A DNA stretch of 64,000 nt. It comes from Thuidium tamariscinum (taxonomy: Eukaryota; Streptophyta; Bryopsida; Hypnales; Thuidiaceae). The position numbers and the translations under genes are program-made. Shown piece by piece: positions 2,986 through 53,739 of this stretch. Where the stretch lies: positions 41,712,821 through 41,776,820 of the forward strand of contig OX344750.2 in assembly GCA_947034885.2 (NCBI GenBank), in the 5' to 3' direction. The notes beneath the pieces were generated by a model, which saw only the letters and a list, made by a program, of their open reading frames with translations, did no database searches and was not told where the DNA came from. The number at the start of each line of letters is the position of its first letter. Position 1 is the first letter of the stretch.

Positions 2986-4900
2986 CATATGCATGCCAAT
3001 TCTCAAGGCAATCTAGGACACTAAACATACTCAATAAAATTTTGCAATGTTCCAATGTCCCAAAAGTTGGCAATGCATTAGGTCATTGGTGAATCAATTT
3101 TCCACCACGTGTTCTTCAAAAAACAAAATTTGAATGGCAAAATCAAAGATGTATTTATACTTGAGAAGTGGGAAGAAAAAGATTTGCAAAACTTCAAAAT
3201 CTCTAATTTCTACAAGCATCAAATGCATATTTCAACCTCCCTAACAACCAGCAAAGGGACCTTAGATGTTTCTCGTAAATTCTTTGTTAATTTTTGTCGT
3301 ATTGAGTTGCCAATGAGCCATGGTCCTACACTATATGGGACATTTATATGTAGGGATGTATCTAATCAAATCTATTATTGTTCACTTAATTTAGATTTCC
3401 TACCCTAAAAGAATTACTTACCTTTGTATATGAGTCTTTTGCATAGCTTCAAACCTTCAAGATCCTTTCAAGAGGACATTTGGAACTTTTGAAATTAAAT
3501 ATTGTGGACACAATTTTCCTTGGGTGGGAACATTAAAAAAGAGACTTTTGTATGAACATCTCCAAATTTTTAATTTTTTAAAATTGAAAACTGTCCTTTT
3601 GGATTAGTAATGTCATATTCATGCTTCTTAATTATGGATTTCTAAGGTGTACATTTTTCTAAATTCAAATTTTTTTGTGAGTGTTAGCCCTATGACACTA
3701 AAAAATGTATTCAATGTCATTGATACAAAATGTCAAGAATCTTTAATGTCAACATACTTACGAGTTTTGCAATTAGTTTAGTTTACATTCTTTTAATAAT
3801 ATTTGCAAATGTTGTCAACAATAGATTAGTAGATTAGAATCACATCATTTATCAAGACTTTTAGAAATAGTACTTCAAAAACTAAGTTAATTACTTGATA
3901 CTATATTCACTACAAGAGAAAGGGGTGTTTTATTGAAAATCTCCTTAAAGGCCATTACTTATAATCTTGTATTTAGGACTATACTTTAAAACTAAATTTT
4001 AACATTCCTTTTTCATGCAATGATTTTATGTGTACAATGTAAAAATCTCACTTTTGGAGGAATTAAAGTTTGTATGCCCTAAAACTAATTCATGTAAGGT
4101 TGGACCCTAAAACTTATTCTTCTCAATTCAAATGGTTTAATCTTTCAATCTTCATAATCAAAGTTTTTGGAATTTCTACATACATTCCTATGCGCCCAAT
4201 CTAGCACAAAATTGATCTATGGTTCAAATACAAAAAGACTTATATTATTTATAATTTTTTAGACTAATCTAAATAGTAGCCATTTTTAACAATCTTTGCC
4301 AACTATGAATGTGTCCTAGTCCTCTAGAAGTTAATATGGGAGCCAACCTATTGCTAATCACCTCCCCCTCCTTTGGGTAGTGTAGGGTGCTTTCTTTCTA
4401 TGCAGATAGATTAATGGATAGTAATCAATTATGGTATAGTTTCGAGTGGATTATAATTGTTTATAAATCTTTCAACATTGCAACCAACCATTGGTTGGAA
4501 ATCAGAAGATGTCTCTTGTATGATCAATATTGGACGAATAGAGTCTTCAACTACAAAAATTATAGTCATTTTGTTTTGGAAAAAGTAGTTGTGAAAAATT
4601 AATGGAACCCTTCTTAACCCTTGAAGGATGCACTCGTGGCTATGGACACCATGCATTTTGATACCATGTGACATCATCTACTTTGAATAAGCCAAAAATA
4701 CTCATTGGAAGTCAAAGCACTGTAGAAGATCTCCCCTTTCTACCCCTAATACCAAGGATGAATAGTTGCACTTTTGTCCTTCAAAGAAAGATTCTTTGTC
4801 ATCCATTGGACACGAATTGTTCACAACATCCTTGAAGGGTTTATTTATTTTTTTACAAGGGGAAGTTTTTCCTCTCATCAAACTTGTGCTCTAAACTTGT
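2986..4900. other. AT-rich intergenic DNA
   Basis: No gene recognised. Frames at 3109-3408 (99 codons) and 4387-4602 have no family motifs and biased A/T composition. A CACTACAAGAGAAA motif near 3908 resembles a CACTA-type transposon end, but I found no partner end. Confidence 0.4.
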
Positions 4901-6030: not shown

Positions 6031-7036
6031 CTTCGGTTCAATAAGTTATTGGCCGGACCGCCGGACGCAGATAGAAACCCAGCACGTTAAAGAGCTTTAT
6101 AATAAAAACTCCGTCATCACTCAACGCAGCTCGTGTCCGACAGTTGAACAGGACTGGGATAGTTAATAATGGGAAGAGGAAAGAAATGCTTGGAAAACAC
6201 AAGGACGGATTGCGGTGGAAGCACAAAATAGAACGAAGTTATGGGAAGGTAAACAGAATGTCAGTCCTCGACGGACTTATAAAATGGAAACTCGAAGAAA
6301 TTGGCAACAATAATTTTCTCACAGCCAATGAGGAAATTTGGATGATCATTCTAATAATAACGGAACGATTTTTGTCAAGAAAGATGTCTTTTCCAGGTGC
6401 ATCAGTCCTGAGTGCACAGGTGCGCCGGCTGCCTCAGAAATTCCCACCAAGATTGGGTGTTCAAATAAAAAGGTATAAATGCTTAATAAAAAAAAATTGG
6501 GCAATTCCTGCTAAGTACACCCCTTTTTTAACTTCTAAAATTTGGTGAACATCCCGGGCTTGGCTGCTGTTCTTCTACTGTTTGCAATGGGTTTTCCATT
6601 TGTTTCAAAAATAAAAAATAATTTTTTTGGGGTGAATATGTAACGAATATGAAAATGGTATGCAACTATCATATATGTATATTGCTCCAAGAGGAGTCCA
6701 AATTGTTGACCTAGTTGGGCGGATCCAAATTTTGCTCTTTTTTTTAACATCATCTGCCAATCACTTTTTTTCAGATTAAATTATTGGATCGATAGGAAAT
6801 GTTGATGCTAACCAACAGGTACGGTACTCTAACATCTAGAATAAGCAAGGGGTTTCACACACGATCTAATTTCAAGGATAAAAGAGGGGCTCTACACATA
6901 ATCTTGAAAGTTTTCCCTTTTTTATTCTCTTGGCAACATATCTAACTTTTGATCAAGGTACTAGATCAGGAAAAAAAATTGACATATCACCTCAAAGTAA
7001 TATATACATATATGTCCACGTAAACAGCCTGGAAAA

Positions 7037-9499: not shown

Positions 9500-9714
9500 A
9501 AAAAAATGAGTTGGTCACCAAGTTCTCTTTTTGATTTTTTGTATTATAACTTTTTTTCCCATCCACCAATTGAAATAAAAATGATATCCCCACAAAGTTA
9601 ATTAGTTTTTTCTATCTTATGAGAAAGTTTCAAAAAGTTTCACTGGAAATTGAGGTCATAGAAACTTGTCCAAGATCCATTTTGTCCCCTAAAGAGACAA
9701 TAGTCTTTAAGGGG
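9500..9714 (+). mobile_element. 3'-end fragment of the TTAA-element family
   Basis: Aligns by eye with the last 210 bp of the 16,792 copy (CTTATG.GAAAGTTTCAAAA, GAACTTG.CC, TTTGTCCCC, GGGACAAT) and ends GGGG immediately before TTAA at 9715. A CACTACAAAAAAAATGAG motif just upstream (near 9492) may be an unrelated CACTA-type end. Confidence 0.65.
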
Positions 9715-9718
9715 TTAA

Positions 9719-13239: not shown

Positions 13240-13547
13240 ATCTGAAATGTGCACCACTAGAATATTTTTGCTTAGAAGTTGGCAGACATTTTGTTTAAGA
13301 TATCAATTTTATTTTTCTTCCTTCAAAAATTTATTAAAAATTGCTTCAAGGAGTTGGACTTCCCCCTCAAAAGTAATTTGCTCTTAAGAGGTTGCTTTAA
13401 TCCCTAATGACACAAGTGACCATTTTTTCATTGTTGCCTTTCTTTTATGGGCTTCCTATTAAAAAAATTTAGAAAATAGATTGCATTAGATATCCAATGG
13501 TAGTAGTTTCATCAAATTCCAAATTAGACTCTAGCTTGTGGATTTTC
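13240..13547 (-). repeat. Dispersed repeat R1, left half interrupted by a TTAA element
   Basis: Matches 19,610-19,914 in the same orientation (TTTTTCTTCCT.CAAAAATTTATT, ATCCCTAATGA, GCCTTTCTTTT, TCATCAAATTCCAAATT). Its continuation resumes at 14,481 after the inserted element. Confidence 0.8.
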
Positions 13548-13551
13548 TTAA

Positions 13552-14476
13552 CCCCTAAAGTTCTTTGACTATATTTTTCACCAAAAATCCTCCAAAACTG
13601 TCATTTCTAACACAAGTACCAAATATTCAGATAATATTGTTTTTGGACACATATAACTGTAGGATCTTTTAGTATTCAGGTTTGAGAAGACGAGGAAGAA
13701 ATTTCAGAAATTTTTACCATGTGGATTACAAGATATTAGTGTTTGAAGTTACAAAAATCCTTTTTTCAACACTGTGAAAATCTGGGCAGCTGCACTTTAC
13801 AAGCTCACATTTGCATGAAAAAAAGTCCAAAATGGTAGTGCTTCTTTGAATTCATTCTCCAAGGCAAGTTGGCTACATGCTCAAAAAATTTCAAATCATT
13901 TGGAATTGGACAACATATAGAAAAAAATAGTAAGTGAAAAGAAGTAGAGAATGATTCAAAATACTAAATTGTTAAAAATTTATTTTTCTGAAATTGAAAC
14001 TTGCCAATCCCAATGGTTCAAATGTTGTGATAAACAACCTACACCCAATGTTTTTATTTTTTTCCAAAAATATTGAAAATTGGATAAATTAAAAGACTTC
14101 AAAGTTTATTTTAGAGTAGAGAATCTATAACTACCTGCAAACTACAACTCTTCATAACTTTTGACTCATTAGTCCAAATGGAATGATTCAAAACTTTCCA
14201 TGTATATATAAATCTATTAAACCAATTTCAAAAGTTTCTTTTCTAAAAAAGTTTTTTTTTTATCTACCCAAACTACCCGAGTTGAGAAATAAACAACATA
14301 TCATGCGATAACTTTTTAACCATGCAGTCAAAAGTCATGAAAATTGTTGGGTTTTAAAGATATTCCTCGTCCACACCTTCCATTAAAATTTGGTCCCAAA
14401 ATATAGAAATCTCTAGTCACACGTACCTGCCCAAAATAGTTATGTTGCCAAAAAAGGCATGTTGGTCCTCTAGAGG
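13552..14476 (+). mobile_element. TTAA-flanked non-autonomous DNA transposon, full-length copy A (925 bp)
   Basis: Flanked by TTAA at 13548-13551 and 14477-14480. The left end is CCCCTAAAG and the right end CTCTAGAGG. No coding capacity. The related empty site at 19.9 kb lacks exactly this interval. TTAA target duplication with CCC/GGG ends is the signature of the piggyBac superfamily; assignment is by termini only, since no transposase is seen. Internal landmarks are GGATCTTTTAGTATTC, CAAGATATTAGTGTTTG, GAAAATTGTTGGG and ATGTTGCCAAAAAA. Confidence 0.85.
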
Positions 14477-14480
14477 TTAA

Positions 14481-15640
14481 GTTGGTTGGTGTAGTTTATA
14501 GCTCATAATTTTAGGTTCAATTTGTGCATGGGCTAAAAAATTAGCCAACTAATGTGATTTGTGTCTACTTCAAAAAGGAGAGATCCAAGGAGCTCAAGGA
14601 AAAGACAAGTGTACCCATTGGGTATTTTTTCACATGCTAACTTAAGATATCTATTTGAAAATTTACAAAACTAGTTTCTTATTAAGGTCATAATCATATT
14701 AATGCTAACATAATTTATTTGATTTGTAGAAAATCTTTTGTATTCTAATATTAGTTTTGAATATTCAAATGCCAAGATCCAAACAAATCACAATATCTTT
14801 AGGGCATCTCCAATGTGGAGTCGGGAAGAAGCACAAGAAAGAGATTTTGAAGTGGGATCAAGGGAGGTAGACGTCATTCTATTCCAACTTCTTAAAAAAG
14901 AAGGAACTCAATGCAAAGCCTACAATGCAAACTTCAAATGGACTTGACTACGTTATGAAAAGGGAAGGAAAAACTTTTATATAAAAAGAAGATTTTTTAT
15001 GCAAAAAGAAGAGTTCCAATTTATTGGCTTATAAAACAAAGTTTGAAAAGGTATGACCATTATGACTTTTTCAATTGTGAGCCAACTTGGAGGCCCTTTA
15101 TATTTTGCCAAATTGCTAATTCAAAGATAGAAAATGGATGGGCCGGGAATAAAGAGAGACCAACGCTTGTTGTATTTTGTTTAGTAGCCTCATCATCATG
15201 CAGTTGGCATCCCTATTCCATTGCTTTGAGATAGCCTCTGATGTGCAAGAATAAACTAATTTATCCACTAACATCTCTATTCTAAATGAAGAATATAATG
15301 CATCTAATACCGTATTATTTGAGTAACTTCTCGATCATCAAAAGTAATGTTGGAATCTTGAGAAAGAATAATCCTTCTTCTATAACCAATTTGATGAAAT
15401 TGAGGTACATAATATGATTATAAACATGAACAAAATGCAAAAATTCTACAGAAAATTTAATTTTTAAAGGTATTGAATTAAGATAAATATAGAAATTGGA
15501 TTCAATTTGATACTTTATGTACGTGCTTCATGATTTCCTTTCGCCATTTTTAATATAACATCTTTTATATTAAGAATTCAATAAACACATTTAATCCTAG
15601 AAAGACACCACCTCAATGATCGATTTTCTTTTGATGTTAG
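14481..15640. other. Right half of R1, then AT-rich DNA
   Basis: 14,481-14,590 continues R1 (GTTGGTTGGTG, TTCAATTTGTGCATGG, CTAAAAAATTAG). Frames at 14,738-14,947 and 15,043-15,234 are unrecognised and short. No gene supported. Confidence 0.5.
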
Positions 15641-15641
15641 T

Positions 15642-16590
15642 CCCTAAGTGGTTTTGACTCTATATTTTTACAAAAAAAAACCCTTCAAAACTACCATTTC
15701 TAATACAAATACCAAATTTTAGAAAGAAAAAAAATTTGATACATGTAACAATGGGATCTTGTAGTACGCTTGTTTGAAAAGATGTAGAAAAATTTCAAAA
15801 TCTTCCACCATGTAGATTGCAAGATATTAGTATTTAAATAGACAAAAATAATTTTTTTGGCCCTACGAGAAATTGGGCAGCAATACTTCACATAGTCACA
15901 TCTGTGTGGAAAAAAAAGGTTAAATTGGTAATTACCTTTGAATTTATTTTTCAAGGCAAGTTGTCGACATGCTTGAAAATTTTCAATTCATTTGAAATCG
16001 TACAACATATAGGAAAAAATAATAAGTAGAGAAAAACAAAAAATGATTCAAAATACAAAATTATAAACAATTTATGAATGGAAATGAAAATTTTCAATTA
16101 CAATGATTAAAATGTTGTAATAAAAAACAACCCACACTTGTTGTATTGATTTTTTCCAAAAATATTAAAAATTGAATTAAATAAAAAAATTCAAACTTTT
16201 TGTATTTTTGAAATTCTATAATGACCTACAAACTACTTAAACTAAAACTCCTTAAAACTTTAGACTCATTGATCAAAATATAATGGTGAAGAACTTTCTA
16301 CTTAGATACAAATCTAAAAAAATAATTTCAAATTTTTATTTCTTAAAAAATTAATTTTTCAAGAAGTTTTTTTTAATCTAGGTTGCCCATTGAGCAACAA
16401 AAACTACATATTATACAATTACTTTTAACTATAAAGTCAGAAGTTATGAAAATTGTTGGGCCTTAAAGGTATACCTCAGAAAAATGTTGTGTGAATTTTT
16501 TTTTAAAACCCACAAAAAACTCCATTCAAAGTGAGTTGCTTGAAATCTCTATATTGCCAAAAGAATATAATTTGGACATTCAAAGATTGG
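15642..16590 (+). mobile_element. TTAA-element family, degraded copy B
   Basis: Follows copy A block by block: TTTTGACT.TAT, CCATTTCTAA.ACAA, GGGATCTTGTAGTA, CAAGATATTAGTATTT, GGCAAGTTG, ACAACATATAG, GAAAATTGTTGGGCC. The left end reads TCCCTAAG after TTAG and the right end has decayed before ATTCAAAGATTGG, so no TTAA survives. Confidence 0.75.
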
Positions 16591-16791
16591 TTATGTTTCT
16601 CACTATAAAAATATGATTCATTTTTTTAACCACTAGGTGCATTCTTATAGTTTCTCCACAATAACCAAGAAAGTCATCCATTGACAATTTTGTGTAGGTC
16701 CTCAATATCATTTTCACAGTAAAAAATGAAAGTAGTCTAGCCAACAAAAATCTAGCTTGATTTCAAAAAAATTAATTAAGTAGTTAATTAA

Positions 16792-17714
16792 CCCCTAAAT
16801 TCCCAAGGCCATTTTTATGTCAAAAACCACTCAAAACTGCTATTTTTGCTGCGTTCGTCCAAGAATACAAAAAAAATCATTTTTTTAGAATCTAACCATA
16901 GGATCTTGTACTTTACTTGTCTTAGCTCACATCGTAAAAATTTCATGAAGTTTGACCGTATAGATTGAAAGATATTAACGTTCAAAGTTGAAAAAGAAAG
17001 TTTTTTTGAACATTGGACTGCAATTTCAGATGACTTTGACCACCAATTGTGAATTTTTTTACACTACAGACTTTGAATTTAAAGTTTTTTATGTTGAAGA
17101 ATTGAGTTGAAAGTCTAGGAAGCTTAAAAAAAACAGAAAAAACTTGATTTTCATTCTTTAAAAAAATGCTAAGTAGAAGTAGGTCCAAGATTGAAAAAAA
17201 AAAAAAATTGTTAATAACTCCAAGATGGGATTGAAAGACAATAATCCCAATGGTGAGATTGTTTTAGCAATCAAACACAACATTCTCAAAAAATTTTTAT
17301 GAAAAATTGTGAAAATTGCAGTCAGAAATGAACCCTACAAGTTATTTTTTCAAGAAGATGCTAAAATTGCCCGAAAAACAAAATTGTCTTTAACTTTCTC
17401 ATTATTGGTCCAAATAGAACGAATCAAAGCTTCACATGTAGACAAAAAGAAAACATTTCAAGTGGAAAAAAAAATTAAAATTTATTTTGATTTTTTGCAA
17501 TTTTTTTTGTGCTGCCCGCCGAGTTTAGTTTCAAGGTTTTTGTGGTATAACTTTTGCTCCTGGGCTCCAACTGAAATAAAAATTATATTCGCATGTAGAT
17601 AATCAGATTTTTTATCTTATGGGAAAGTTTCAAAACAATTCAACAAAATTTGAGATCACAAGAACTTGCCCGAAATCTAATTTGTCCCCCGAGGGGACAA
17701 TGGGAATTTAGGGG
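16792..17714 (+). mobile_element. TTAA-flanked element, full-length copy C (923 bp)
   Basis: Has perfect 18-bp inverted ends including the target: TTAACCCCTAAATTCCCA at 16788-16805 and TGGGAATTTAGGGGTTAA at 17701-17718. Diverged inside from copy A but collinear (GGATCTTGTA, GATTGAAAGATATTA). Non-coding. The intact ends suggest it is among the younger copies. Confidence 0.85.
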
Positions 17715-17718
17715 TTAA

Positions 17719-18600
17719 TTGATTAATATTATTTGATGTGATGCAATCATAACCACATGAGATTGCTAATGTGGCTCAATTCCTAAGTAATTCCCATGTT
17801 CCCCATTGCTTGGGAACTCGCGATCTTTTAGAGACCTCAAATATCCTCTAATGCTTAGGAACTTGTGATCTTTTAGAGGCCTAAAATATCCTCTCAAGTG
17901 GGTATACCCCAAAGTGCTAAAAATTGGTATTGTGTCTAATTACTACTATTAGGTTGTTCAAATTTTCATATAGTCTTGTTGGCAAGTGAAAACATGTTCC
18001 AATAATCCAAAGAATGCAACATTTGAATACAATATGCAAAAGTTATGAAGAGTCAAAGTTTGTTTCCAAAAGTACCGTCTACAGTTTGAGTACATAACTG
18101 ATTTTGAAAATGTACACAGACTGTAGATGACACTTTAAGGTCAGCTGCGCTTTTTGGGTGTACTTCTCACAGTTGCATCCGAAAAACTCTCAAGTCCCTT
18201 TTGCCTACCCTTGGTATAACTTTATTACTCCGTATGACTTATGCCTGCATCACTTGTTGAATCTGATGATGGTAGCATTGTCCTTGTCAACATGAGCTCA
18301 AAATGATTTCCACTTTCATATGGGATCTCCATATTATCTGGTTTAGTTTTTTCCACCTCCAACTGAACCTCTTTTGGTGGCAACCACGGCACTTCATGGA
18401 AGCCGCCCTCGTGGAATAAGCGAAGCTGGTGTTGTGGCTTCATTGCCAAGAATGTACTCCGGAGTAGAATCCAGACCTCCCCCCAAACAACGGGGAGCAT
18501 GGGCAAAAATGCGTACGACGGACCTTTTTTTAGTCGGTTGTACGTGGCACTATAAGCTTAGGTTGTCCCTCACTAATTTCTTGGTATTCCACACTATATA
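17719..18600. other. Intergenic DNA with a 45-bp duplication and an unrecognised open frame
   Basis: A 45-bp tandem duplication lies at 17,809-17,898 (GATCTTTTAGAG..CTAAAATATCCTCT). A 93-codon minus frame at 18,506-18,225 (FHEVPWLPPKEVQLEVEKTK and similar) has less biased composition than its surroundings and could be a gene fragment. I do not recognise it, and both strands are open across part of it. Confidence 0.3.
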
Positions 18601-19233
18601 TGGGCCATTTCACACTATGGGATGTCCAAGTCAAGAGGTTGTGGGAGTGAATGACCCAAACTTTGTTGAGAGTTCAAAAAAATGGGCTATTAAAAGGCAA
18701 TAAAAAATAGGATTTACAGTCTTTAGTTGGCCATAGTGTGAAGCCTCCTAAGGTCAAACTCAAAGTCCAAATTCATAGCAATAAACTCCCACGGCCTCTC
18801 AACTTGAAGGGCCATAGTGTGAAGTCTGTAAAATCCAAGTTCAAAAGGTCCAAACCTTTAGCAATGAACTCCAATAGCCTCTTGATTGGAATGACCATAG
18901 TGTGAAGCCTCCCATTGCCAAGCCCAAAGTCCAAACCTATACCAATCTAATGATGAAGATCTTGTTAGATTCTAATTTTAATGAAAAAATTCCCACAACC
19001 TCTTGACTAGAGTTTGGGTCTCCATTTTTGCTTGACCCAGATTCAAGTCAAGAATCCATCATCATGTAAGAGTTTGGATGCCATGTAAGTAGTTTTGGGG
19101 ACATTGAATTTTGATGGACTTTGAATTGTGCCGCATAGTGTCAAGGGACGAGAGGCCAAAATCATGGTTTCTTGAAATGTAATTGGTGGAAACCGACGGA
19201 TTCTCTACCGTCAACCATAGTATGAAAGTGCCT
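18601..19233 (-). mobile_element. hAT-like non-autonomous element, copy in reverse orientation
   Basis: Matches 26,605-27,240 reverse-complemented over its whole length, including CTATTAAAAGGCAATAAAAA and GGAAACCGACGG. The ends are degraded: TGGGCCATTTCACACTATGG and CATAGTATGAAAGTGCCTCT. Inside are about three units of an 85-bp sub-repeat containing GGCCATAGTGTGAAG. Confidence 0.85.
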
Positions 19234-19489
19234 CTAAATATTTATCATTATTATACAAGAATATACTATTTTTGAATTAGTTATTGGTGTAGTTGGAACT
19301 CATGAACCTTCATGTGTACAAATGGAAGTATTTGTAGAAGTATTTATTGACTTTGATGGCTTGTAGAATAACATTCTTGGAGTAAATCAACTTCATTGTA
19401 AGAGGCAATATAGTTTCACTATTTAGTATAGAAGGGTAAAAAAAACTTTGTCACATTATAAGGTAGGTTGCTCTAAAACTGACTACTAA

Positions 19490-20040
19490 CATTGAGGTAC
19501 ATTTTGCTTTTTTCAATGAACCAATGGTATACATTTGAGGAGGGGGGAGGGGTGCTTGTAGTTAGTGACCTCTACGTTTGAACTTCAAAATTTTGTAACT
19601 AAGTCCATAAAGGTCCAAGGAATATGAAACAATTTTGAATTAGATGTCAATTCTATTTTTCTTCCTACAAAAATTTATTGAAAATTGTTTCAAGGACTTT
19701 GGCTTCCCTCCCAAAGCAATTAGTTCTTAAGTGGTTACTTTGATCCCTAATGATGCAAGTGACTATTTTTTCATAGTTGCCTTTCTTTTCTGAGCTTTCC
19801 ATTTTCAATTTATTTTAATAAAAAATATTTTTAGAAAATAGATTGCATTAAAAATCCAATGCAATATTTTCATCAAATTCCAAATTCCAAGTTAAATACT
19901 ACTTTGTGGGTTTTTTAAAAGTTGGTTGGTGCAGTCCATGACTCATGTTTTTGAGTTCAATTTGTGCATGGACTAAAAAATTAGACAACCATTGTGATAA
20001 TTGTCCACTTTAAAAAGGATTCAAATCAATTAATTTGAGT
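19490..20040 (-). repeat. Dispersed repeat R1, uninterrupted copy (empty site)
   Basis: Continuous R1 sequence with a single TTAA at 19915-19918, exactly where copy A of the TTAA element sits in the 13.2-14.6 kb copy. Further left (19,490-19,630) it also corresponds, reverse-complemented, to the flanks of the CATAACATTC element at 27,787-27,961. Confidence 0.8.
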
Positions 20041-22538: not shown

Positions 22539-22542
22539 TTAA

Positions 22543-26519: not shown

Positions 26520-27265
26520 GATACCATCGAAACCCTCAGGGAAAACGCTGAATTTTTTTGCTTTTTGCATTTTGCATTTTTTTCAAATTCTGAATTCAGA
26601 TTCTGAGGGCCACTTCACACTATGGCCGAAGGTTGAGAGTCCGTCGGTTTCCACCAATCAAATTTCAAGAAACCATGAGTTCGGACTCTCGACCCTTCAC
26701 ACTACGCGGCACAATCCAAAGTCCATCAAAATTTGATGCCCCCAAAACTGCCTACATGGCAACCAAATGCTTACATGGCGATAGACTCTCGACTAGAGTT
26801 TGGGTCGAGCAAAAATGGAGACCCAAACTCTAGTTGAGAGGCCGTGGGAGTTTTTTCATTAAAAATCAGAATCTAATAAGATCTTAATCATTAGATTGGC
26901 ATAGGTTTGGACTTTGGGCTTGGCCATGGGCCGCTTCACACTATGGCCGTCCAAGTTGAGAGGCCGTGGGAGTTCATTTTCAAGGGTTTGGACCTTTTGG
27001 ACTTGGCCTTTGGAGACTTTACACTATGGCCATCCAAGTTGAGAGGATGTGGGAGTTCATTTTCAAGGGTTTGGACTTTGGACTTGGCCTTTGGAGGCTT
27101 CACACTATGACCGGCCAAAGGCTTTAAATCCTATTTTTTATTGCCTTTTAATAGCCCATTTCTTCGGACTCTCGCCAAAGTTTGGGTCACTCACTCCCAC
27201 AGCCTCTCGACTTGGTCGATCGTAGTGTGAAGCGGCCCTGAATCAGAGACCCCAAATTAGCTTTC
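26520..27265 (+). repeat. Host repeat (8.0-8.3 kb family) split by the hAT-like element
   Basis: Left part GGGAAAACGCTGAA..AAATTCTGAATTCA, right part AATCAGAGACCCCAAATTAGC. Joined, they reproduce the order seen at 8,080-8,170 and 8,205-8,300. Confidence 0.6.
26605..27240 (+). mobile_element. hAT-like non-autonomous element, better preserved copy (636 bp)
   Basis: Terminal inverted repeats: (g)AGGGCCACTTCACACTATGG at the left, and the complement of CAGGGCCGCTTCACACTACG at the right. CAGGG-type ends are typical of plant hAT elements. An internal 85-bp sub-repeat (CACACTATGGCC, AAGTTGAGAGG, GTGGGAGTTCATTTTCAAGG) is present two to three times. An 8-bp target duplication could not be shown cleanly. 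No transposase. Confidence 0.75.
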
Positions 27266-29526: not shown

Positions 29527-29530
29527 TTAA

Positions 29531-29797
29531 CCCCTAAATGCAAAAAATGCGTTTTTTTTTTCAACATAGCGATTTTGGGCAGTTCACTACAGCTTTATTT
29601 TATTTTATTTTTTTGAAATTTTCACACAAGATGTGCCCAAGGAGTAGCTTTAAGGCCCAACAATTTTCATAACTTTTGACTTTGTGGTTAAAAAGTTATT
29701 GCATAATACATGGTTTTTGTTGCATGGCGGGCAGATTGGGCACCTCAAAAAACTAAATCGCTATGTTGCCAAAAAATGCAGTTTTTGTGTTTAGGGA
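29531..29797 (-). mobile_element. Short deletion derivative of the TTAA family (267 bp)
   Basis: Flanked by TTAA at 29527-29530 and 29798-29801. Both ends are versions of the family 3' end: CCCCTAAATGCAAAAAATGC with AACATAGCGATTT, and its complement at the right. This gives terminal inverted repeats of about 45 bp. The interior is the family block around CAACAATTTTCATAACTTTT in reverse orientation. A typical MITE. Confidence 0.8.
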
Positions 29798-29801
29798 TTA
29801 A

Positions 29802-30951
29802 CCTTCAAAGATTGTGGCCCCTCTATGAATAATGTAGTCACCAAAGTTGTTCTTATTATTAAACTGGTATGTGCATTCTTTATTTCTATCATAAACAATG
29901 AAGTCATCCATTAACTAATTTTTATCTCCTTGAAGACAATTTGGTCTTAGTTTTTATTGAAACAATATATTATCTTAATATGCTCTCTCATATACTCTCT
30001 ATTGTAGTTCATTATAGCTATAAAGGCAACTAGGGATTAGATTTAAATCCCTTGGACCAGTAATTGAGGTGTACTATTAATGAATCTTCTCTTTCCTTTG
30101 TATATGTTTCAAACCTCCTTTGAAAACACACTTTTTCTCTTCTTGTTTATTTTGGTTGTGCACCCTTTTGTAATTTTGTCGTATATTTCCTATTCCCAAG
30201 ACATTACCATCACGTTCTTTAATGATTTTTTTATCTTGAGCTTTGTATTTGCAATTCTAAATATTGTTTTGTTTTGTTCTAAAGAGGTTATAGGCATGCT
30301 CTTCATACCTTTTGTCTTGAATTTCTAACATTTCAAAACTTTTGGTTTCAGTTTTATTTTTTGCAAAAGGTTTTACAACCTTCTTCTTCTTTTTCAACCT
30401 CAATGCCATAGCTATCTTCCTCTGAGCTTTATCTCCTCTCCAAGTGCTATTACTCCTATTGTTGTTGCTCTCTATTCTTCCCCTTCCCCAACTTTCTTCT
30501 CTACATTCTTTTTCATCTACTTTCTCCCCTCTTTGCTTGTTGGTCCCTCCCCACTAAATTTTGGCTTCTTCTTGCTATTTCACCTCTTGTTTAAAGCATC
30601 CCTTCTACCATAGTAGGATTTTTTCACCTTCAAATTTTGTTTTAAAATTTTTTACCTTCTATTTATTTTAATATTATATTTATTTCTATTATATACTAGT
30701 GTGCCTTGTCTTGTTTCCACAACCAAAATTGAAGTAAAAGTAATTTTCTGATTTTTCAATTCATAAAAAACTTTGAAATTCAATAATTTTTTCATTGCAA
30801 ATTGGAATGCGACAAAACAAAGCCCATGGACCCTTCTTTGTTGAAGGCTTTTTGGCAATACAAAGAACACAACTAGAGGATGCATGGTACTAGAGATCTC
30901 AATGTAACAAACAAAACAAACAAGAAACTTGACTTAATCTTGGGACAATTC
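29802..30951. other. AT-rich intergenic DNA
   Basis: 29,802-29,960 resembles 16,590-16,740 (GTGCATTCTT, AAGTCATCCATT). The rest includes a C/T-rich stretch near 30,380-30,600. No gene. Confidence 0.45.
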
Positions 30952-31482
30952 CACATGTTGGGAGATTTTGGATATCTTTTCTTGGGTAAGTCTTTTGAAC
31001 TTGAAATTTATAATACATGTTATCAACATAGATATGACTTCATGTAAAAAAATTCATGGTAAAAAACCATTTTCTGAGCCCTTGGGAGGGTGCCAAAGTT
31101 GGCAATTGTGAAAATGTTCTCAAAACTACACATGTTGGAAGATTTTGAATATCTTTTTCTAAATTAATCTTTTGAACTTGAAAATTTTCAAACATATTAA
31201 GAACACAGATTTTATTTCATGACAAAATTTTCATGGCAAAAAAAGAAAATTTAAATCCTTGGGAGGGTGTCATAGTTGAAAGTAGTGAAATTCTTTTCAT
31301 TGCTACACATGTTGGTAGATTTTGAATATATACTTTTTTGTAAATATTTTGGCCTTTAAAATTTTTCATGCATGTTATTATCTTATAGATGATGTTTTAA
31401 GAAAATTTCATAGTAAAATATCAATTTTTGAATTCTCAAGAGGTTGTCAAGTTGGCAAAGATGAAATTGTTTTCAATGCAAA
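30952..31482 (+). repeat. 177-bp satellite-like tandem repeat, three copies
   Basis: Units start CACATGTTGG at 30952, 31129 and 31306, followed by AGATTTTG.ATAT, CTTTTGAACTTGAAA, TTCATGG.AAAAAA and CTTGGGAGGGTG. The third is the most diverged. Confidence 0.85.
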
Positions 31483-31920
31483 TGCCAAAATGCCATTTAG
31501 ATTGGGACCCCACTATACATCTTATGACACTAGTAACTACCTTGCCACTTTTTGATTACTAAAGCAACAATTAGTTTTTGTTGTCGAAAGTACGTCCAAT
31601 GGTGTTCCTTATCACATTCTTTGATCTTCAAAGGAATGGGACACCTTGTAAAATTTAAGAATGTGTTTGGCAATACCATTAGGGGGCTTATTCCAAAACA
31701 ATTGACAACAATCTCAACATAATGCTCCTTTACAAAAAAATCTTGCAAAATGAATCAATATAGTTCATATAGTCAAGCAACAACAAATCTATGAAAGTCA
31801 AGGATGCATTCATTCTTACAAAAAAATGCACTCCATCCACTCATTACACAACAAAACTTACACAATAGAAAATAGACAACCAAATACTTTCTCCAAATTA
31901 TCTACACCACCACCCTTTGA

Positions 31921-32827
31921 CTCCTAGAAGATCACCCTTCTAAACTTGTCAACATGTCAAATTTCAGCAAGTACATGTGACTAGCAATTCCATGTTTGGG
32001 GCCCAAACTTTAATAGAAGATGTGAATAAGGAATATCTTTCATATGCATTACAATTCTAACATTTGGAAGTATAAGTCAAGAAATATTGCCTAATATGTG
32101 TTTTTTTTGTAAATGGGTAGTTAAGGCAAATTGAAAAGATAAATTTTTTTAGAAATAAAAATTTGGTTATAGTTTTCTAAATTTTTACATGAATGTAGAA
32201 GGCATTGAATCATTGCATTCATTAAAATGAGTCAAAATTTATAATGAGTTTTTGTTTGTAGGTAATTATTGATTTTTTTGTTCTAAAATAAACTTTGAAG
32301 TCATTTATTTTATTCAATCTTCAATATTTTTGGAAAAAAATAAAATCATAGGATGAATATTGTTTATTATGATAGTGCAGCAATTGGAATTGCAATTAGA
32401 ATCTAATTTCTTAACAATTATTTAAGTATTTTGAATCATTCTCAACTTCTTTCTACTTAATATTTTTTCTAATATGTTGTATAATTCCAAAAAATCTGAA
32501 AATTTTCAAGCATGCAATGAACTTGTCTTAAAAGGAATTCAAAGAAGTACTACAATTTTGGACATTTTTTCATACAAATGCAAGATTTTGAAGTGCAATT
32601 GCTCATTTTTTTAATTGGCCCCTAAAGGAATTTTGTAAATTCAAGAGCTCATATCTTGCAATCCATACGGTCAAAATTTCTAAATTCTTTTGAAATGTTC
32701 TCAAGTGAATATACTACAAGATCCTATAGTTATATGTTGTTTTAAACTTTTTTTTCCCCTAAAATTTGGTACTTGTATTTGAAATGACAATTTGGGAGTG
32801 TTTTTGGTGAAAACATAGTCGAGGAAG
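31921..32827 (-). mobile_element. TTAA-element family, near full-length copy D (907 bp), reverse
   Basis: Reverse-complement alignment with copy A from end to end: GACTATGTTTTCACCAAAAA, ACTATAGGATCTTGTAGTAT, TTGCAAGATATGAG, ACAACATATTAG, CTAGTCACATGTACTTG. Flanked by TTAA at 32828-32831 and TTGA (mutated TTAA) at 31917-31920. Confidence 0.75.
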
Positions 32828-33434
32828 TTAAAGAGTTGAAGTCTTTGCTAAAGGTTTCCACTTCTTTTCACACCTCTCATTAGCCTCCACGCCTTCCACC
32901 AAGACCATAGTCAAAGTTGATCAAGTTAGAGTGAGTGTAAAACTTCTCACTCCAAATACTATTTAAACTGATATAAAAATCAGTTCATATATATTAGTTA
33001 GGGCACTTTGTTTATTTGTTATGATGTTTTGGTTCAACAACAGTGTTAGTTTGTGAGTATGAAAGTGTGAGCATGTGAGCCTTGAACATATATATAAGTG
33101 GTTATCATGCAACTATTAAAGGTGTTTATAATATAAATACCTATAATATAGCTATCTATGGTTTACATGCACTATTAATATAGAAGGTAACTATAATATA
33201 GACACTTATATCATAGGTGTATAGTCTTTTAGGCTCATGAACTCACACTTCTAAGCTCACATAATAGCAACCCTCTAGGCAAAACCCCCATGCAAGTAAA
33301 TGCAATCCAACTTTGAATGCTACATATCTTGGTATTCAAATGAATGAGAAGATAAGATCTTTATGTAAGTTGGGTGGTAGTAGGTAAGACAAGCAATGTG
33401 GAATATGTACAGTGGGGTCCCAATCAAAATGGCA

Positions 33435-33975
33435 TTTTTGAAATTGAAGTGAAGGAAATTTCAGTGCAGCCAACTTTGAGAGCCTTTCGAGAGCTGAGAA
33501 ATTGGTATTTTACCACGAACTTTTTACCACAATATCATCTTTATGTTAATAACACGTGTGCCAAATTTTAAGGCCAGAAGATTCACCATAAAAAAGTTAT
33601 TCAAAATCTACCAACATGGGTAGTGGTAAGAAACATTTCACTACTTTCAACTTTGACACCTTCCTAAGGATTGAGTTTTTTTTTCTTTTGCCATGAAATT
33701 TTTTGTCGTGAAATAATCTCTATGTTTTTAATATGTATTAAAAAATTTCAAGGTAAATTTTTTTTTAAAAGATATTTGAAATCTCCCAACAGGTGTAGTT
33801 TTGAGAAAATTTTCACAATTGCCAACTTTGACACCCTTCCAAGGGCTGAAAAATTGGTTTCTTACCATGAATATTTTTTTGTGAAGTCATCTCTATGTTG
33901 ATAATATTTGCTCCAAATTTCAAGTTCAAATGAATTACCAAAAAAAAGATATACAAAATCTCCCAACATGTGTAT
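33435..33975 (-). repeat. 177-bp satellite-like repeat, three inverted copies
   Basis: Reverse complement of the 30,952 array, with unit boundaries at CCAACATGTGT-type sites near 33,610, 33,785 and 33,962. Shared blocks are GCCAACTTTGACACCCTTCC and TTACCATGAATATT. The two arrays face each other across about 2 kb that holds copy D. Confidence 0.85.
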
Positions 33976-35255
33976 ATCCTACTCACAAGGCAAGATCAAC
34001 AAAAATAAATATTTAATGTAAATTACAAAATAAAATAAAATGAACAAGAGAAATTGTTGAATTCAACAAGAATTGAGGAAAACTTATCATCTACCATTAA
34101 GAGAATTTTTGATGGTGAAATGAAGGAATTACTTTATGAAAAAATAGAGAGAACGAAAAGTAGAGGGATTATATTTAAATCCATTCTTTGCCCATGGTGA
34201 GACAAGAGATTTGGGTTATATAGAATTTGGCAACTTGACATGTCAATGTTGTTTCTAACGTCTAAATGTTGTTTCAAACATCTTGACGTTGTTTTAGAGA
34301 TTTTATATTGAACACAATTCAACTTGTATAAAAGTCATCTCTTTTTATCTATTCTATCCATCTATTCATTTCCTTCTTTTTTTGTAAAGCATGCCATGTG
34401 TCTTCCCTTTCCAAAAAATTTCACATATGGTTGGTATTTTATCATAGACTGTAGTAATTTATATTGATTTTTCCATAGTCAAAATGAAGTTCTTGCTGAC
34501 AAGGCAATCTATGTTTTTTGGGATGTTACAAAAAATATAAATTTTTCTTTCCAAACATTGTTAAGAACATGTCCACCTACAGTACGATGACATCTACTTG
34601 TTCCCCAACTTACCCACACACGTTTTTCTGCAACATTACATCAAATTCACACTCATATAGCCGTTCACCACTTACCACGTGACATCTCAAAAAACATGAT
34701 ACGTTTTTTGGAAACACTACTGAAAACGCGAGTTTCTTATAGTGACAAGAGCAACAAGCCTAGCCAGGGTGGCATTGCCGAGGTGAAACTGGTGGCCATG
34801 CTCTAACCTTATAATCTTACATCTCACACCCTATGTTAGACGTACTAAAATCCAAGATTTTAGCTCCAATATTTTAGGTGACCCTACCTTTGGACTCATG
34901 CATACTTATATCTAATATGAAACACCCACACGCCAATGCCCCCTCCCTGCCTGTCCCTCATTTTCAGGAGCTGACACGACAAATCTTCAATGGGTTTCTA
35001 CATATTGAACAAACCCAAAACAATTCTTATTGCATTTGCCTTGACTTGGCCCATGGTGGCCATGCTCTGGTAGGGATTGTGCCACTCCGCATTTTCATTT
35101 TTATTACTAACTTATTGCCGATCATGGCTTGAGCAGTGGCCGGGTAATGGGGGACGAGCACGAAAACTGTGCCTTTGGCATAATTCCTCATTTCATGAAG
35201 CTTTACATGCAGACGTAACATGACTCCGCAAAGCATTTCAAACCCCTTATTGAAA
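33976..35255. other. Intergenic DNA with one CACTA-type end
   Basis: AACGCGAGTTTCTTATAGTG ends near 34,743; on the minus strand this reads CACTATAAGAAACTCGCG, a CACTA-like terminus. No partner end was found. 34,880-35,250 is GC-richer but holds no recognised gene. Confidence 0.4.
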
Positions 35256-35358: not shown

Positions 35359-37491
35359 CAAATTGAACCCCAAAATTGCTTCCTGCACACCATGTATGAC
35401 TCGTCATCAGGTAGGCAGGGCAGCGCAGGAGGTAACTTACGTGGAAGGAACTTCGGAGCGTGCGAAGCAAGTACCATGTGGCTGGCCCCATGGGGCTTCC
35501 TCGGGGGGATTAATCAATGGGGCCACAACTTATGTAAGCTATACCTTATGTAATGAGTCCACTGTAGTCGGTAAAGTCGGGCTACCTTATGATATCAGTT
35601 CATTTGTTGAGGAGGGGGAGTGAGATCGGTGATGGCTCCCCAGTTGACGTCACCAAAAACGATTGGTTGATCGCCCCTCAAATACTTCACTTTTGTTTTT
35701 AAATTTTTGTGTCTTCTTGAAACACATGGACAATTTCCAACTTTTCGGTGTTTCATTGCGTGAGAGATAGGAACTCTGTATACTTGATAAGACATAAGTT
35801 ATGTGCCCAACAAGTTGTTGATAACCACTGGTTCCATGTTTGTGTACTCAAGTCACAATTTGCACGTGGCTAATTTGAGTAGGTTAAATGGTAAAACTAC
35901 TTGAGTGTTTTTTTTGCAGACTTTTCAAAATTGTCACTTGGAAGCCATTTTTCAATGAAAGATTGAAGCATGTTTTGTTTTTTTACCAATGAATGATGTA
36001 TTGAATATTTGATAGAAAGAATGGAGATTATGAATTTAGGAATTGAATGGATTGATATTAATTTTTGAAGTCTTACCTTCTAAATTAAATAAAATTCTAT
36101 AGAGTTTGATCATTTTTCAAATAAACACTTACGCTTGTGTTTTAACTTTGATTTGATCATATATTAGAGTTATTTTCAATGATTTAAGATCACGTTGGTT
36201 AATTTACTTTGATGTTTTAAGTACTTCTCACAATTCAATTTCTTCTTTGAAGCCTAAATGCTCCAAAATCTATATTAAGGATGAGGATACGAGTGCTTCC
36301 AAGGCATTCTTTAGTTCAAATAATTTTTTTTAGTTATCCAAATACATGGTAGAATCTTTGCAAGACAACCTTAAGAAGGATACATGCAAAAATAAGAAAA
36401 AAAAATGTCCAAAATTTTAACCTTTAAAATTTTCATCAATCATAATATGGTTGGTTGGTTTTTAGAACAACCATTTCTAGACTTAGGAATGTAAAAGGTC
36501 ACTTATTCTTAAGCTCATTATGAAGAGAATAAAATTAGCTACAAAGTGGTGTATTCAAATTTTGAAGAGAATTCACTATTGAATTTCTATAAATTTCTAA
36601 AGCATTGGCGATCTAAAGGTAAAGGCATTGTATATGGAACTTTGGCAAACAAGGTAGAGGCATTTGTTTTTTCACCTAATCTTGGTTTGTATTAGCTACA
36701 ACTACTAAAATACACATCTAGCATTTGGATTTGAGCGGTTTTTTATATATTTTTTCCTATTGTGTGTCTTTTCTTGTCTTCTTCCACTTTATCATACCTA
36801 CTCTTGAATTTAAAATTCAAATTTGTAACAAATCAATTCCATAATCTATGAATTTTAACAATGAAGTTGGTTACTATTGCAAGACCATTTTCTCACTCAT
36901 TTTTTGTCCTAAAAATATAAGACTTGTTTTTAGATATGTGGAACTTTGTTAAGTGTCTTAAAGAGCTTGTCAAAGAACAATTTCAGTTATGCCCAAACAT
37001 GGATTTTCTTGAAAAAACCTTCATTTTTAAGTTATGATCTTGCAATCTATGAGTTGAATTGAAATCAAAATCTGTAGAGATGACGAGGGCTTGACTTTCT
37101 ACAAGATCCTATGGTTAATTCTACCTAAAAATGACTCATTGCTTTTCGAGCTTCAATTCTTTGTAACTTACAAAATCAGGATTCAAAACACCTTGAAAGT
37201 TTGATGCTTGGAGAGTTGCTCATCTTAGAACTCATAAGTCTATTAGGAGCAAGCCTCATTTGGCTTGGCATGTAGGACTTGGCATCATTTTGACTCCATT
37301 TGGACGTATTCTCAAGTTATTGCATATAGGGAGGGGGATCCATTTATTTGGAATCAGCAAGGCCTTCACCTTTGTAAGTTCTATTAGTGTTACTGGTTCT
37401 TGGTTGTTTCTTTGTCTAACCCACAGGGCTTGGCTATTGTTCTGGTGTTTTTTTCTTTGCAATGAATTCCATTTGTTTCAAAACAAAAAAA
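35359..37491. other. Intergenic DNA, no gene recognised
   Basis: 35,400-35,640 is GC-rich without a recognisable product; the rest is AT-rich. 37,020-37,120 carries a small reverse fragment of the TTAA family (CTTGCAATCTATGA, CTACAAGATCCTAT). Confidence 0.4.
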
Positions 37492-45300: not shown

Positions 45301-47111
45301 AGCCAACACCTGGAATGAGGCACATGTTAGGCAAAAATCAGAGCCCCAATCACATAATATTCAAAAAGAGATCTGTGATTCAACAAGGGTCGGCTTCAAT
45401 AGCCAAACTCTAGTACCAAAATCGAGAAAAGACGCACAAAGTCGGGTTCACTCACTAGAAGCAAGTGCTGGACTGATGGACGATACAAGATGTACTTGTG
45501 GGGATTGGGTGGCAGGCTTGGATCCGGAATTTCCTCCACTACTCCAACATGCCCTGATGCACTCATCTTACTGCTGGGTTCACCAACTCGTGTGCGATAT
45601 AGAGAACCACTTGGCTCCCACTCCAGAGCTTGCAGCATTCGGAATGTATCCAAAGATAGCTCACTGAACTTGACCTGAAAGCAAACATAATTTGATAGAT
45701 ACGGATACTCCATAGACGTCCAATAAATGACATACTGTAAGGCATACTAAAAAAGAGTCGACCAGAGACATGACTACCAACCTCACTGTGATAGTAGCTA
45801 GCAAGAATAGCATCCTCCAGTCGCAGAGGTTTGGCACCTTCCAGCCTATCAACCATCGGAATTGATGCAGGGTGAGGATCCAGAAGCACACTGTATCTTA
45901 AAGGCCTGCTGATCTCACACGCAGCATCCGCTTTCATGAAACGAATGATCTCTTGCACTACCACCTTCCACTCCCGTGCGTCGATGCCCTGTACCCACAG
46001 CAAACATGTCCACATCCCTGAGAACACACAAATTGCTAAACCTTCTCAAATATATGTGATCCAAAGCTATAAATAAAGTGTGTAGTATAAAACGTGATTA
46101 AGTTTTCACCCCTTAAAAGAGATCAAGTATTCATAGTTTTACAATGACTGTTTTGATCGATAACATTGTGAAAGGTCACTAGTTCAAATAGGGTCAAGTT
46201 TTATATCAGTGAAGAACATTGCATTTGTTGATGAGAAAATACACTTAAGAAAGTCCATATAGGGACTGTTCAAAATTTCTAAACAATGAATTGGAGGCTC
46301 ACTTCGGGCTTCTAGGCCCTTAACATGCACGCGGAGATTTGGAAAAAAAAAATAGAAAGAATCTGCCAAAAACAACATGGCTTTATTGAACCTGGTAAGC
46401 GCGGCCGAATTCCTCAACAAGGAGACGAAGCTGGCGAACCAGCAGGTGCACCATCTCCCGCCGGTTGAGGAGTAAGCAAATCACAATGAACCGTGCGCAG
46501 TAGCGAAGCTGTTTGTTGGCCAACGGAGCATCCTTATCATTGTCTTTGAAGTAGTCTCGAGTCAAGATGGCTTCGTAGAAAATGAAAGACTCAGACAGAA
46601 ACTTGGCATCGCTCGTGCGGAGGTAATAGTTGTAGTACAGCTGGCCAATCCGAGAAGCGATTTCACCGATTTCCCATCGTTTCAAGCCAACCTCCACCAG
46701 TTGGTGACGATGCTCCTGCTGGAACTTCCACAGCTTGGAATACACCTGGTGCATGTCGAAACAGGTTCGTCAAAAGGAACTGAATTCTACATTAGAAAAT
46801 GAGGCTTGTAAAAACTGTCACATTTCTAGGTTCTATCAAAGTCAGAGATGGTTCCATGGGATAGCAATACGTATGGTTCAAGGGTAGTCTAAGTCTAGGC
46901 ACATGATTGGGATCCAACTACAACTGGATTGTGCACGAGACAATGTGGAACTTAATTTGCAGCCGGAATTTACCTGAAAGGCTTTGTGGAAATAGTAATC
47001 CCATTTGTTACGGCCGAAAGGAGGAAAATCCCGCAGTCGAGCGAACTTGCTGTACGCCTTGTCGACCAACGCTCGATATTCCTCACTAGGAAAATGAACC
47101 ACAGGTCCCAT
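42322..47111 (-). CDS. SCAI: SCAI homologue (protein SCAI family), 10 exons
   Basis: Exons on the minus strand, in order: 47111-46974, 46745-46392, 45988-45782, 45674-45456, 45309-45243, 45157-44852, 44670-44579, 44272-44075, 43643-43507, 42601-42322. All nine introns are GT-AG and all phases join, giving 1998 nt and 665 aa. The ATG at 47111 is the first after an in-frame TGA just upstream. Recognisable family blocks are RWEIGEIASRIGQLYYNYYL and NRREMVHLLVRQL (exon 2), LDTFRMLQALEWEPSGSLY (exon 4), ILPFTRRPLFIVVDSDNS (exon 7), FTFFLTAPFLAFCRVVG (exon 8), and DPFLRQLVLR joined across intron 9 to FIFCRGVFALH. Exon 6 (about residues 329-431) is a Ser/Thr-rich, poorly conserved linker. Animal SCAI is a nuclear cofactor that represses MRTF/SRF transcription and acts in double-strand-break repair; the plant role is not established. 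Length is close to the roughly 600 aa I recall for seed-plant homologues. The gene looks intact and stands alone. Confidence 0.95.
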
Positions 47112-51742: not shown

Positions 51743-52473
51743 GGGTCATTGCAAGAAACACCTGTCCTATTTCATGTCACAATTTGAACCACTTTTTTGT
51801 TGTCTACAATAACTTTTGGAGATTAAGTCCAATGAAAATGAAATTTTTATTGAACATACCTAACTTGAAGCTTATTAGATCCCTTATTTTTCAGAAATTT
51901 AAAAAAATCATTTTATATTTAAAAAACATTTTTGTTGAGCGTCACAAAATTACATTTATGGTTATCATTACGTTCACAGTGTCTAAATTTAATGATTTCA
52001 AGACGAAACTTTCATGGTCTATTTGCATAGGTGTAAAACCTATGAATTCCCAAAAAAATCTAAAAATATGTTTTTTTATGTCCTCCACATGAGTACAAAT
52101 TTTTTTTCGTGGCACGCAATTTTTGAACATTGATGATGGTTCTAAGATTATTCCTTTGGTCAAATCTCATCGAAATCAACTTTCCTCAAATGGCCAATTT
52201 TTATTTTTTCTTAAAATTGATTTTCCTATTTTTTACAAATTAAAATGTTGAAGTACTAATTTTCATGAGATTTTGCACTTTTCTGGATTTTCTACTTAGA
52301 GATTTTTCCTATGCTTTTCCTTTCTAGGGTATATTCTTCTTAAAGGTTTATACATGAAACATATTTTTCACTTTTTTTAAAACTTGTTTTTCTAATTTTA
52401 AAGTACTTCCGAAAAAAAAAAGACTACGTTGCAAAACGCTACGCTTTTTGGTAGGTGTTTCTTGCAACGACCC
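51743..52473. mobile_element. Element bounded by 21-bp inverted repeats
   Basis: GGGTCATTGCAAGAAACACC at 51743 and its complement at 52453-52473 differ at one base. The similarity extends outward in weaker form (TGACTCATT / GAGTCATT, to about 51,715 and 52,545). The right side ends near 52,559 in TTTTCGCGTAGTG, a CACTA-type terminus on the minus strand. The outer left end is uncertain. Confidence 0.6.
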
Positions 52474-52559: not shown

Positions 52560-53209
52560 TAGGGTGGAAGTGGATGAGCACCCGACCAAATAGTAGCTCT
52601 GCAAGCAGTTTATCGTTGGAACTCTATAGAGAATGCCAGGTTGGAATGACCACAGTCATGGACTAGTCATTTAGAAGCCACAAAAAATGGTTTGAAGATG
52701 GTAATTACTGCCATATGACTTCATTTTCACTTGGCTGTGGATTTGGAGTAACATTTTCACTTTTCAAAAAAATTTGGGCCTTGGAGCCAAGTTTGAGACA
52801 TAGTTTTGACACCTGGATGGATTAGGGTTTAATCAAATGGATGCATCAAATTGCTTCTTTTAGAAGGGGCTTAGATGAATAAATCAAATTATTTTTTTCA
52901 AAAGTGGTTGAGATGGATGGATCAGATTGACAGATGAAACTTCATCTTTACAACAAAATGACAATTCAAGATTGCATCTTTAAAGAATTGAACGGCTTAG
53001 ACTTTAGGGTAGCCGCCTCATTTTAGGGTTTTAGGCTTATATTTCTATGGAAGCTAATTGTAGTCATTGTTTAGTCATACAATAATCATTTTTTAGTCAT
53101 AGAACAATCATTTAGCAGTTATAAAGTATATTGTAACGTGGCAGCAAGAGATTTCAGCTGTACCATTACAAATGAATGGTGGAAATTTTGTCTTTCTCCT
53201 TTGTAGTTA
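52560..53209. other. Intergenic DNA
   Basis: No gene. 53,050-53,125 holds repeated TTTAGTCATA/CAATCATTT motifs like those at 54.1-54.8 kb. Confidence 0.4.
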
Positions 53210-53341
53210 CACTAGTAGAAAATCTCCCCGGTTCTGTTGATTTGGTCGCGTTGATGATCAACAGATTTCTGTTAATCAACAGAAATCTGTTGATCATCAA
53301 CGCGACCAAATCAACAGAACCGGGGAGATTTTCTACTAGTG
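53210..53341. mobile_element. Perfect 132-bp palindromic CACTA-type MITE
   Basis: Two 64-bp arms, identical by eye, flank a 4-base spacer AATC. The ends read CACTAGTAGAAAATCTCC inward. The direct flanks are TTA on both sides (53207-53209 and 53342-53344), the 3-bp target duplication expected of CACTA/EnSpm insertions. Perfect arms imply a very young insertion. Confidence 0.9.
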
Positions 53342-53739
53342 TTAGGATTTAGGCTAGCCGCAATCATCTTGGGTTATCATATTTTCCTCCTTCCTTCTTA
53401 GTCAAGAACATCTTCTTCATTTTTTCCTCTTGCTGTAGAGGTTTTATTTGTTGAAGAGGTGTTGTTGCTGGAGATGTGTTGTTGGCTATAGAGGTATTGT
53501 AAAGGTATTTTGTTTAGGGTGTAGGGGTAGTTTTGTTCTTATAGAGGTGTTGTTTTGTAGTTTTAGAATTGTGTTGGTGTGTTTTTGTAGTTGTGTTGTT
53601 ATATTGTTTAGTTCTTGGGTTCAATCTTGCTTTGTTTTGTTCTATTGTTGTTGTAAACTTGTATTAGTATGATTTAGGGTTGTATTTCAACTTTGTAAGA
53701 AAATTGTTTTGTAGTTTTAGGGTTTGTTGTTCACTTGTT

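Follow-up and report, generated by a model that had tools for sequence, protein, structure and literature searches.

Element A, a 925-bp sequence at positions 13,552–14,476 (+ strand) of a 64,000-nucleotide stretch of the moss Thuidium tamariscinum (GenBank assembly GCA_947034885.2, contig OX344750.2, positions 41,712,821 to 41,776,820; hereafter the window), is very probably a non-autonomous piggyBac superfamily element of the nuclear genome that inserted at a TTAA into a copy of the repeat R1 and was moved by the transposase of larger relatives. We assign A to piggyBac because its ends are shared with TTAA-bounded, transposase-bearing elements, directly on contigs C3 and C8 and, through a second window element, E, on contig C7. 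The TTAA-specific insertion with exact boundaries that the original prediction read from this window is borne out by target duplications in all 20 fetched relatives, by thousands of matching ends and by the transposase-bearing relatives.

The letters of the window place A between a left TTAA at 13,548–13,551 and a right TTAA at 14,477–14,480 (both annotated without strand). The interrupted R1 copy occupies 13,288–13,547 (+) on the left and 14,481–14,579 (+) on the right, and a second, empty copy at 19,632–20,019 (+) passes uninterrupted through a single junction TTAA at 19,915–19,918. In BLAST alignments the left flank (13,288–13,525) is 79% identical to 19,632–19,886 and the right flank (14,479–14,579) is 82% identical to 19,919–20,019. 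Joined without the insert and with one TTAA, the flanks align to the empty copy in one piece (302/390 identical, 77%), consistent with the predicted single gap of about 925 nt at TTAA, with small gaps elsewhere and the joint within TTTTCT-TAAGTTGG / TTTTTTAAAAGTTGG. Both R1 copies are thus real, with the shared repeat beginning near 13,288 and 19,632 rather than at the predicted 13,240 and 19,610. They are, however, paralogs that have diverged by ~23%, not filled and empty alleles as had been proposed. The earlier statement that this pair directly proves the target duplication also goes too far: the joint lies in a run of T and A that also has a mismatch and a gap, and a TTAA start is no more than 2 nt away from 3.7% of all positions in the window, so that the pair taken alone is modest evidence for the boundary, suggestive rather than conclusive.

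The boundary is settled instead by copies elsewhere in the genome, a 363-Mb assembly of 19 contigs, eleven of which are 17.5–54 Mb long. A DNA search with A, in which 40 of 10,198 first-look candidates were scored, listed 38 matches outside the window that are full-length or nearly so, at 92–94% identity, together with one copy split over two rows and two short rows. All of the 20 best of these 38 other full-length matches, which were fetched, carry identical 4-mers on both sides (19 TTAA, 1 CTAA) in differing surroundings, the 4-bp target duplication expected of piggyBac. The family consensus likewise has the 5'-CC..GG-3' tips with short inverted repeats of that superfamily. A itself begins with CCCCTAAAG and ends with CTCTAGAGG, the consensus right tip being CTTTAGGGG; the left tip is exact in 18/20 relatives and the consensus right tip in 18/20, the exceptions being TCCCTAAAG, CCCCTAGAG and, twice, CTTTAAGGG. 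These relatives are 922–930 bp long and 93.4–100% identical to one another (median 95.2%), and A shares 95.5% identity with their consensus. C-to-T or G-to-A changes make up 24 of the 41 substitutions of A against the consensus, and A has 5 CpGs where the consensus has 14, a pattern expected of transposons that, like A presumably, are methylated. Allowing up to two mismatches, the 26-base left end of A has 1,873 matches in the genome and the 23-base right end 2,388, which are counts of ends and not of full copies; a reversed-pattern control gave 0 for each.

No long or shared reading frame was seen in A, whose open stretches are short, and the family consensus has no open stretch longer than 91 codons. 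Nor do the mismatches between A and element C, a full-length relative in the window (31,917–32,839, − strand; 72–73% identical), show a three-base rhythm (79/307, 88/304 and 84/306 per position). End counts, target duplications, consensus identity and the lack of a long frame together underlie the annotation of A as a non-autonomous piggyBac element.

The link between such ends and a transposase gene runs in part through element E (16,788–17,718, + strand), which was found by a scan for TTAA pairs with inverted ends. It measures 923 bp between TTAAs, has 14-bp perfect inverted tips (CCCCTAAATTCCCA) and a subterminal hairpin (TTGTCCCC..GGGGGACAA) close to its right end, and shares ~60% identity with A across 665 bp. 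Contig C7 carries a 5,135-bp element bounded by TTAAs, whose two ends match the first 303 bp and the last 143 bp of E, each with 72% identity; another E-like right end is located ~2.4 kb outside this element. The 774-codon open frame of this element encodes a protein (P0001) that matches PF13843 (DDE_Tnp_1_7, the piggyBac transposase family) at 2.1e-79 and the solved piggyBac transposase 6x67/6x68 at 8.9e-33. The catalytic residues of the latter, D268, D346 and D447 (PMC7351741), align to aspartates at all three positions in P0001, the one protein aligned.

A genome search with the C7 protein (59 rows including itself, 58 of 884 candidates scored) yielded relatives, and both ends were read for two of them. 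The first, C3:41,119,643-41,127,215, measures 7,565 bp between TTAAs and has CCCCTAAAGG at both tips; the second, C8:2,132,796-2,140,122, measures 7,319 bp and has tips CCTCTAAAGG and CCCCTAAAGG. Each holds a transposase match. Both are 71–73% identical to the right end of A through the TTAA and 70–72% identical to the left region of A from ~213 to 352–377, collinearly and at the same distance from the end. This shared right end and collinear left subterminal stretch indicate that A is built like the C3 and C8 elements minus the gene. Ends shared with a PF13843-encoding element are thus found for A on C3 and C8 and for E on C7, although at 70–73% identity these elements are relatives rather than the exact partner of A. 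In a third relative, L071, only the left region of A is matched within the fetched stretch. At L073 1099-1373 (C3:8,517,098-8,517,372) a left end like that of A (83% identical over 123 bp) begins ~150 bases past an end reading TTTAGGGG-TTAA, itself downstream of a transposase match. One candidate for an autonomous partner, C1:42,206-47,240, in which perfect A ends lie 5 kb from each other, was rejected because an unrelated insert divides a copy of A there. This 4.1-kb insert, at L076 773-4882 (C1:42,922-47,031), is perhaps a long terminal repeat retrotransposon insertion, and the A alignments on its two sides overlap by 6 bases at the joint.

Membership of A in another TTAA-targeting superfamily, Kolobok or Sola3, is the alternative that survives best, and it is very improbable. 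Sola3 also targets TTAA. Kolobok likewise makes TTAA duplications, but its ends are 5'-RR..YY-3' (PMC9587614), whereas the A-family consensus reads 5'-CC..GG-3' and so lacks the Kolobok tips. In addition, the elements that share ends with A and E carry transposases of the PF13843 type, in a genome that was not searched for Kolobok or Sola transposases.

A PIF/Harbinger (TAA/TTA) or Tc1/mariner (TA) miniature inverted-repeat transposable element (MITE) whose flanks merely resemble TTAA is less probable still. Both superfamilies appear for plants in a 2023 review (PMC10004981), and their short duplications would fit within TTAA. The flanks of A relatives nevertheless point to a longer unit: the outer T is conserved in 19/20 and the outer A in 20/20, and flanks that match in the inner TA only occur in 0/20. 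Element C is bounded by TTGA/TTGA on the + strand, that is, by TCAA on both sides in its own orientation. Together with the genomic copy flanked by CTAA/CTAA, it shows that 4 bp are duplicated rather than a 3-bp TAA/TTA or a 2-bp TA. A decayed relative of A, element B (15,637–16,590, + strand; ~71–73% identical), has degraded ends and is flanked by TTAG on one side and TTGG on the other, which is not an exact match.

The proposal that there was no insertion, and that the 19.6-kb R1 copy lost an ancestral 925-bp segment, draws on the fact that insertion and precise deletion are not separable from one pair alone, and was rejected as scarcely credible given six further one-piece R1 copies, a seventh that reads on into repeat-like sequence, and the presence of the 925-bp unit at many other sites with target duplications of its own. 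These copies come from a genome search with the uninterrupted R1, in which 40 of 2,059 candidates were scored and 43 rows listed; besides the query, six rows cover both sides of the insertion site in one piece. As a single row is one aligned piece, it is uninterrupted by construction and cannot contain the 925-bp insert, and the uninterrupted form is therefore common, though not thereby universal. In the seventh match, L069, the BLAST alignment stops at the joint, and the next 45 bases are repeat-like as judged by eye.

The original prediction also called for more filled and empty pairs across the genome, and such pairs were found, with the joints crossed. Relative L019 (filled) aligns to L060 (empty) at 80% over 239 bp and to an empty site in the window (52,188–52,417) at 72% over 234 bp, and relative L021 (filled) aligns to L002 (empty) at 87%, over 62 bp only. 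Relative L010 sits inside an E-like element, and its filled/empty comparison gives 69%. The flanks of L023 were also compared with window positions 6,556–6,621 as an empty site, a candidate discarded as too short and gapped.

Several observations weigh against the assignment of A to piggyBac or against insertion at an exact TTAA. Opposite the TTAA of the filled copies, the empty sequences paired with L019, L010 and L021 read GGAA, GTAA, TTGG and CTAA, so that these pairs speak more for the precision of the insertion than for its exact target. The joint in the six further R1 copies is TTAA in 3/6 and another sequence in 3/6, and all filled/empty pairs are diverged paralogs. On the side of the transposase, the outermost left 212 bp of A align to the C3 and C8 elements only at the 9-bp tip. 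A gene-carrying element with ends closely matching those of A was not found; within the relevant transposase group, both ends were read in two elements.

Taken with this evidence, the piggyBac reading suggests the following course of events. A, which has no transposase of its own, would be served in trans by a piggyBac transposase from larger elements of the same genome, presumably of the C3, C8 or C7 type or closely related to them. This enzyme would recognize the CCCCTAAAG tips of A together with subterminal sequence and excise the element, and excision may be seamless by analogy with insect piggyBac. The excised A would then be joined to a TTAA, the target being duplicated on insertion. In the present case A would have landed in one copy of the older repeat R1, whose paralogs keep the uninterrupted state.

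Possible sources of such an enzyme are numerous. PF13843 has at least 116 matches in the genome (116 scored of 659 candidates), all above the curated cut-off and the best at 5.7e-80; the same search of 14 well-known genomes as a control gave 0 matches. Within the window, 30 open frames, some overlapping, were submitted to Pfam, and none matched a transposase. Nine fetched copies of one gene-carrying family (L050-L058, on C1, C2, C5, C8 and C9) differ from one another at 0–2 positions over 3,984 bp. In the 100 bases past their shared end, at most 34 positions agree in any pair, and the copies thus occupy different sites. The other end, compared in two of the nine, is 99.9% identical over 1,134 bp up to the TTAA and divergent beyond it. 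In one copy of the family the TTAAs are 5,088 bp apart, the tips read CCCCTAAACGCCGG and CCCTGAAACGCCGG, and the open frame has 1,023 codons. So few differences at different sites imply very recent transposition of this 5.1-kb family. The family thus looks recent, whereas copies of the A family differ by ~5%. From the transposase matches, the near-identical 5.1-kb copies and the end counts given above, we lean towards the view that piggyBac elements form a large population in this moss genome, one that was active recently and perhaps still is. One gene-carrying copy, L052 (positions 2–220), occupies the very TTAA that abuts an A-family right end, and TAGGGG-TTAA is also seen in L049 and L043, at or ~10 bases from a piggyBac end. 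It is possible that TTAAs made by one element are reused as targets in L052, L049 and L043.

Further relatives of A lie within the window. Element D (29,527–29,801, − strand) is a short form with 267 bp between TTAAs and tips CCCCTAAA/TCCCTAAA. An unbiased scan of the window for pairs of TTAAs that enclose inverted ends of 20 bases found 4 hits, compared with 0–1 in each of five shuffled windows. E and D are the best hits at 16/20 each; since one shuffled window also reached 16, the score alone is not decisive for them. Both start with CCCCTAAA as A does, which distinguishes them from the other two hits; those belong to long inverted arms that form a pair of their own. Exact TTAACCCCTAAA sites number four in the window, all of them ends of A, D or E. 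Fragments of related elements include right ends of an E-like element (fragment F, 9,537–9,718, + strand) and of an A/D-like element (H, 2,065–2,263, +), and left ends of an E-like element (G, 1,292–1,437, −) and of a related element with TTACCCCCTAAAG (K, 2,742–2,853, +). Weak matches to a profile of the A, B, C and E family at 4,106–4,181, 36,916–37,130 and 55,053–55,242 (E-values 4e-6 to 1.6e-4) are perhaps older fragments. TTAACCC-like sites at 22,539 and 51,137 were rejected as family members, their similarity to the family being weak or none.

Other repeats in the window include one at 53,207–53,344 whose 65-nt arms are perfectly inverted around a 4-nt loop, with CACTAGTAGAAAA tips and TTA on both sides; we take it to be a young CACTA-type MITE. 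Inverted arms of ~570–590 nt (80% identical over 580) with 177-nt tandem units flank element C at 30,928–33,994, and C may thus be nested in a larger element of the foldback type. A 627-bp inverted duplicate pair with 83-nt tandem units lies at 18,602–19,226 and 26,614–27,238 (84% identical). Two open frames at 45,563–46,754 (−) match Pfam SCAI (2e-57 and 4.3e-13), and one at 58,233–58,586 (−) matches a pirin/quercetinase C-terminal cupin (6.6e-11); they are probably exons of host genes. An Rfam search of the window gave 0 matches at gathering scores. CHG is depleted in the window (observed/expected 0.75), which fits a plant. Among the small contigs, of which the first 10 kb were read, C18 (103,123 bp) has a cox1 match and C19 (115,000 bp) has rpoB and ycf66. 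The presence of ycf66 in a plastid speaks against a flowering plant, and ~103 kb is a mitochondrial genome size in keeping with mosses, so that the organelle contigs look moss-like.

If correct, these findings would mean that plants have a natural transposition system that targets TTAA and may be seamless. PiggyBac is widely used in genome engineering as a scarless, TTAA-targeting tool (PMC7351741), and native moss copies that jumped recently would offer plant biology an endogenous system for such tests. Geneless TTAA-bounded repeats with CCCCTAAA tips, which could pass for unclassified MITEs, would also join a known family with candidate transposases.

The literature on piggyBac in plants is not uniform. 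According to a 2008 grapevine paper, no more than five plant cut-and-paste superfamilies were then described, with piggyBac absent from them (PMC2528002). A 2022 abstract places piggyBac in most eukaryotic lineages (PMC9499001), and a 2023 abstract reports its isolation from insects, fungi and plants (PMC10813416). A 2023 review lists it among angiosperm MITE superfamilies (PMC10004981), and a 2024 review counts it among plant superfamilies (PMC10794571). In the open literature, without most subscription papers or Repbase, none of the listed titles and opening lines of abstracts reported piggyBac elements from a moss, which is weak evidence of absence; the single moss genome paper retrieved contains only the word 'piggybacking' (PMC10619864).

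At 925 bp, A exceeds the typical length of a MITE. Like the angiosperm piggyBac MITEs of the 2023 review (PMC10004981), it is small, non-autonomous and assigned to piggyBac in plants, whereas here transposase-bearing relatives occur in the same genome, one family of them with very recent copies. Kolobok shares with A the 4-bp TTAA duplication and differs in the opposite polarity of its tips (PMC9587614) and in its transposase family. With the piggyBac superfamily, whose type element comes from Trichoplusia ni, A shares the TTAA target and its duplication, the CC..GG tips and an asymmetric subterminal sequence, and its relatives encode a PF13843 transposase in which the three catalytic aspartates align (in P0001). 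Unlike T. ni piggyBac, A is non-coding and its host is a moss, and the four measured transposase-bearing elements are 5.1–7.6 kb long with frames of ~630–1,023 codons, compared with the 594-aa T. ni transposase (PMC7351741). A is therefore a known type of element in an unexpected moss setting, apparently recently active, and the notable part is the recent piggyBac activity in a moss, not the element type.

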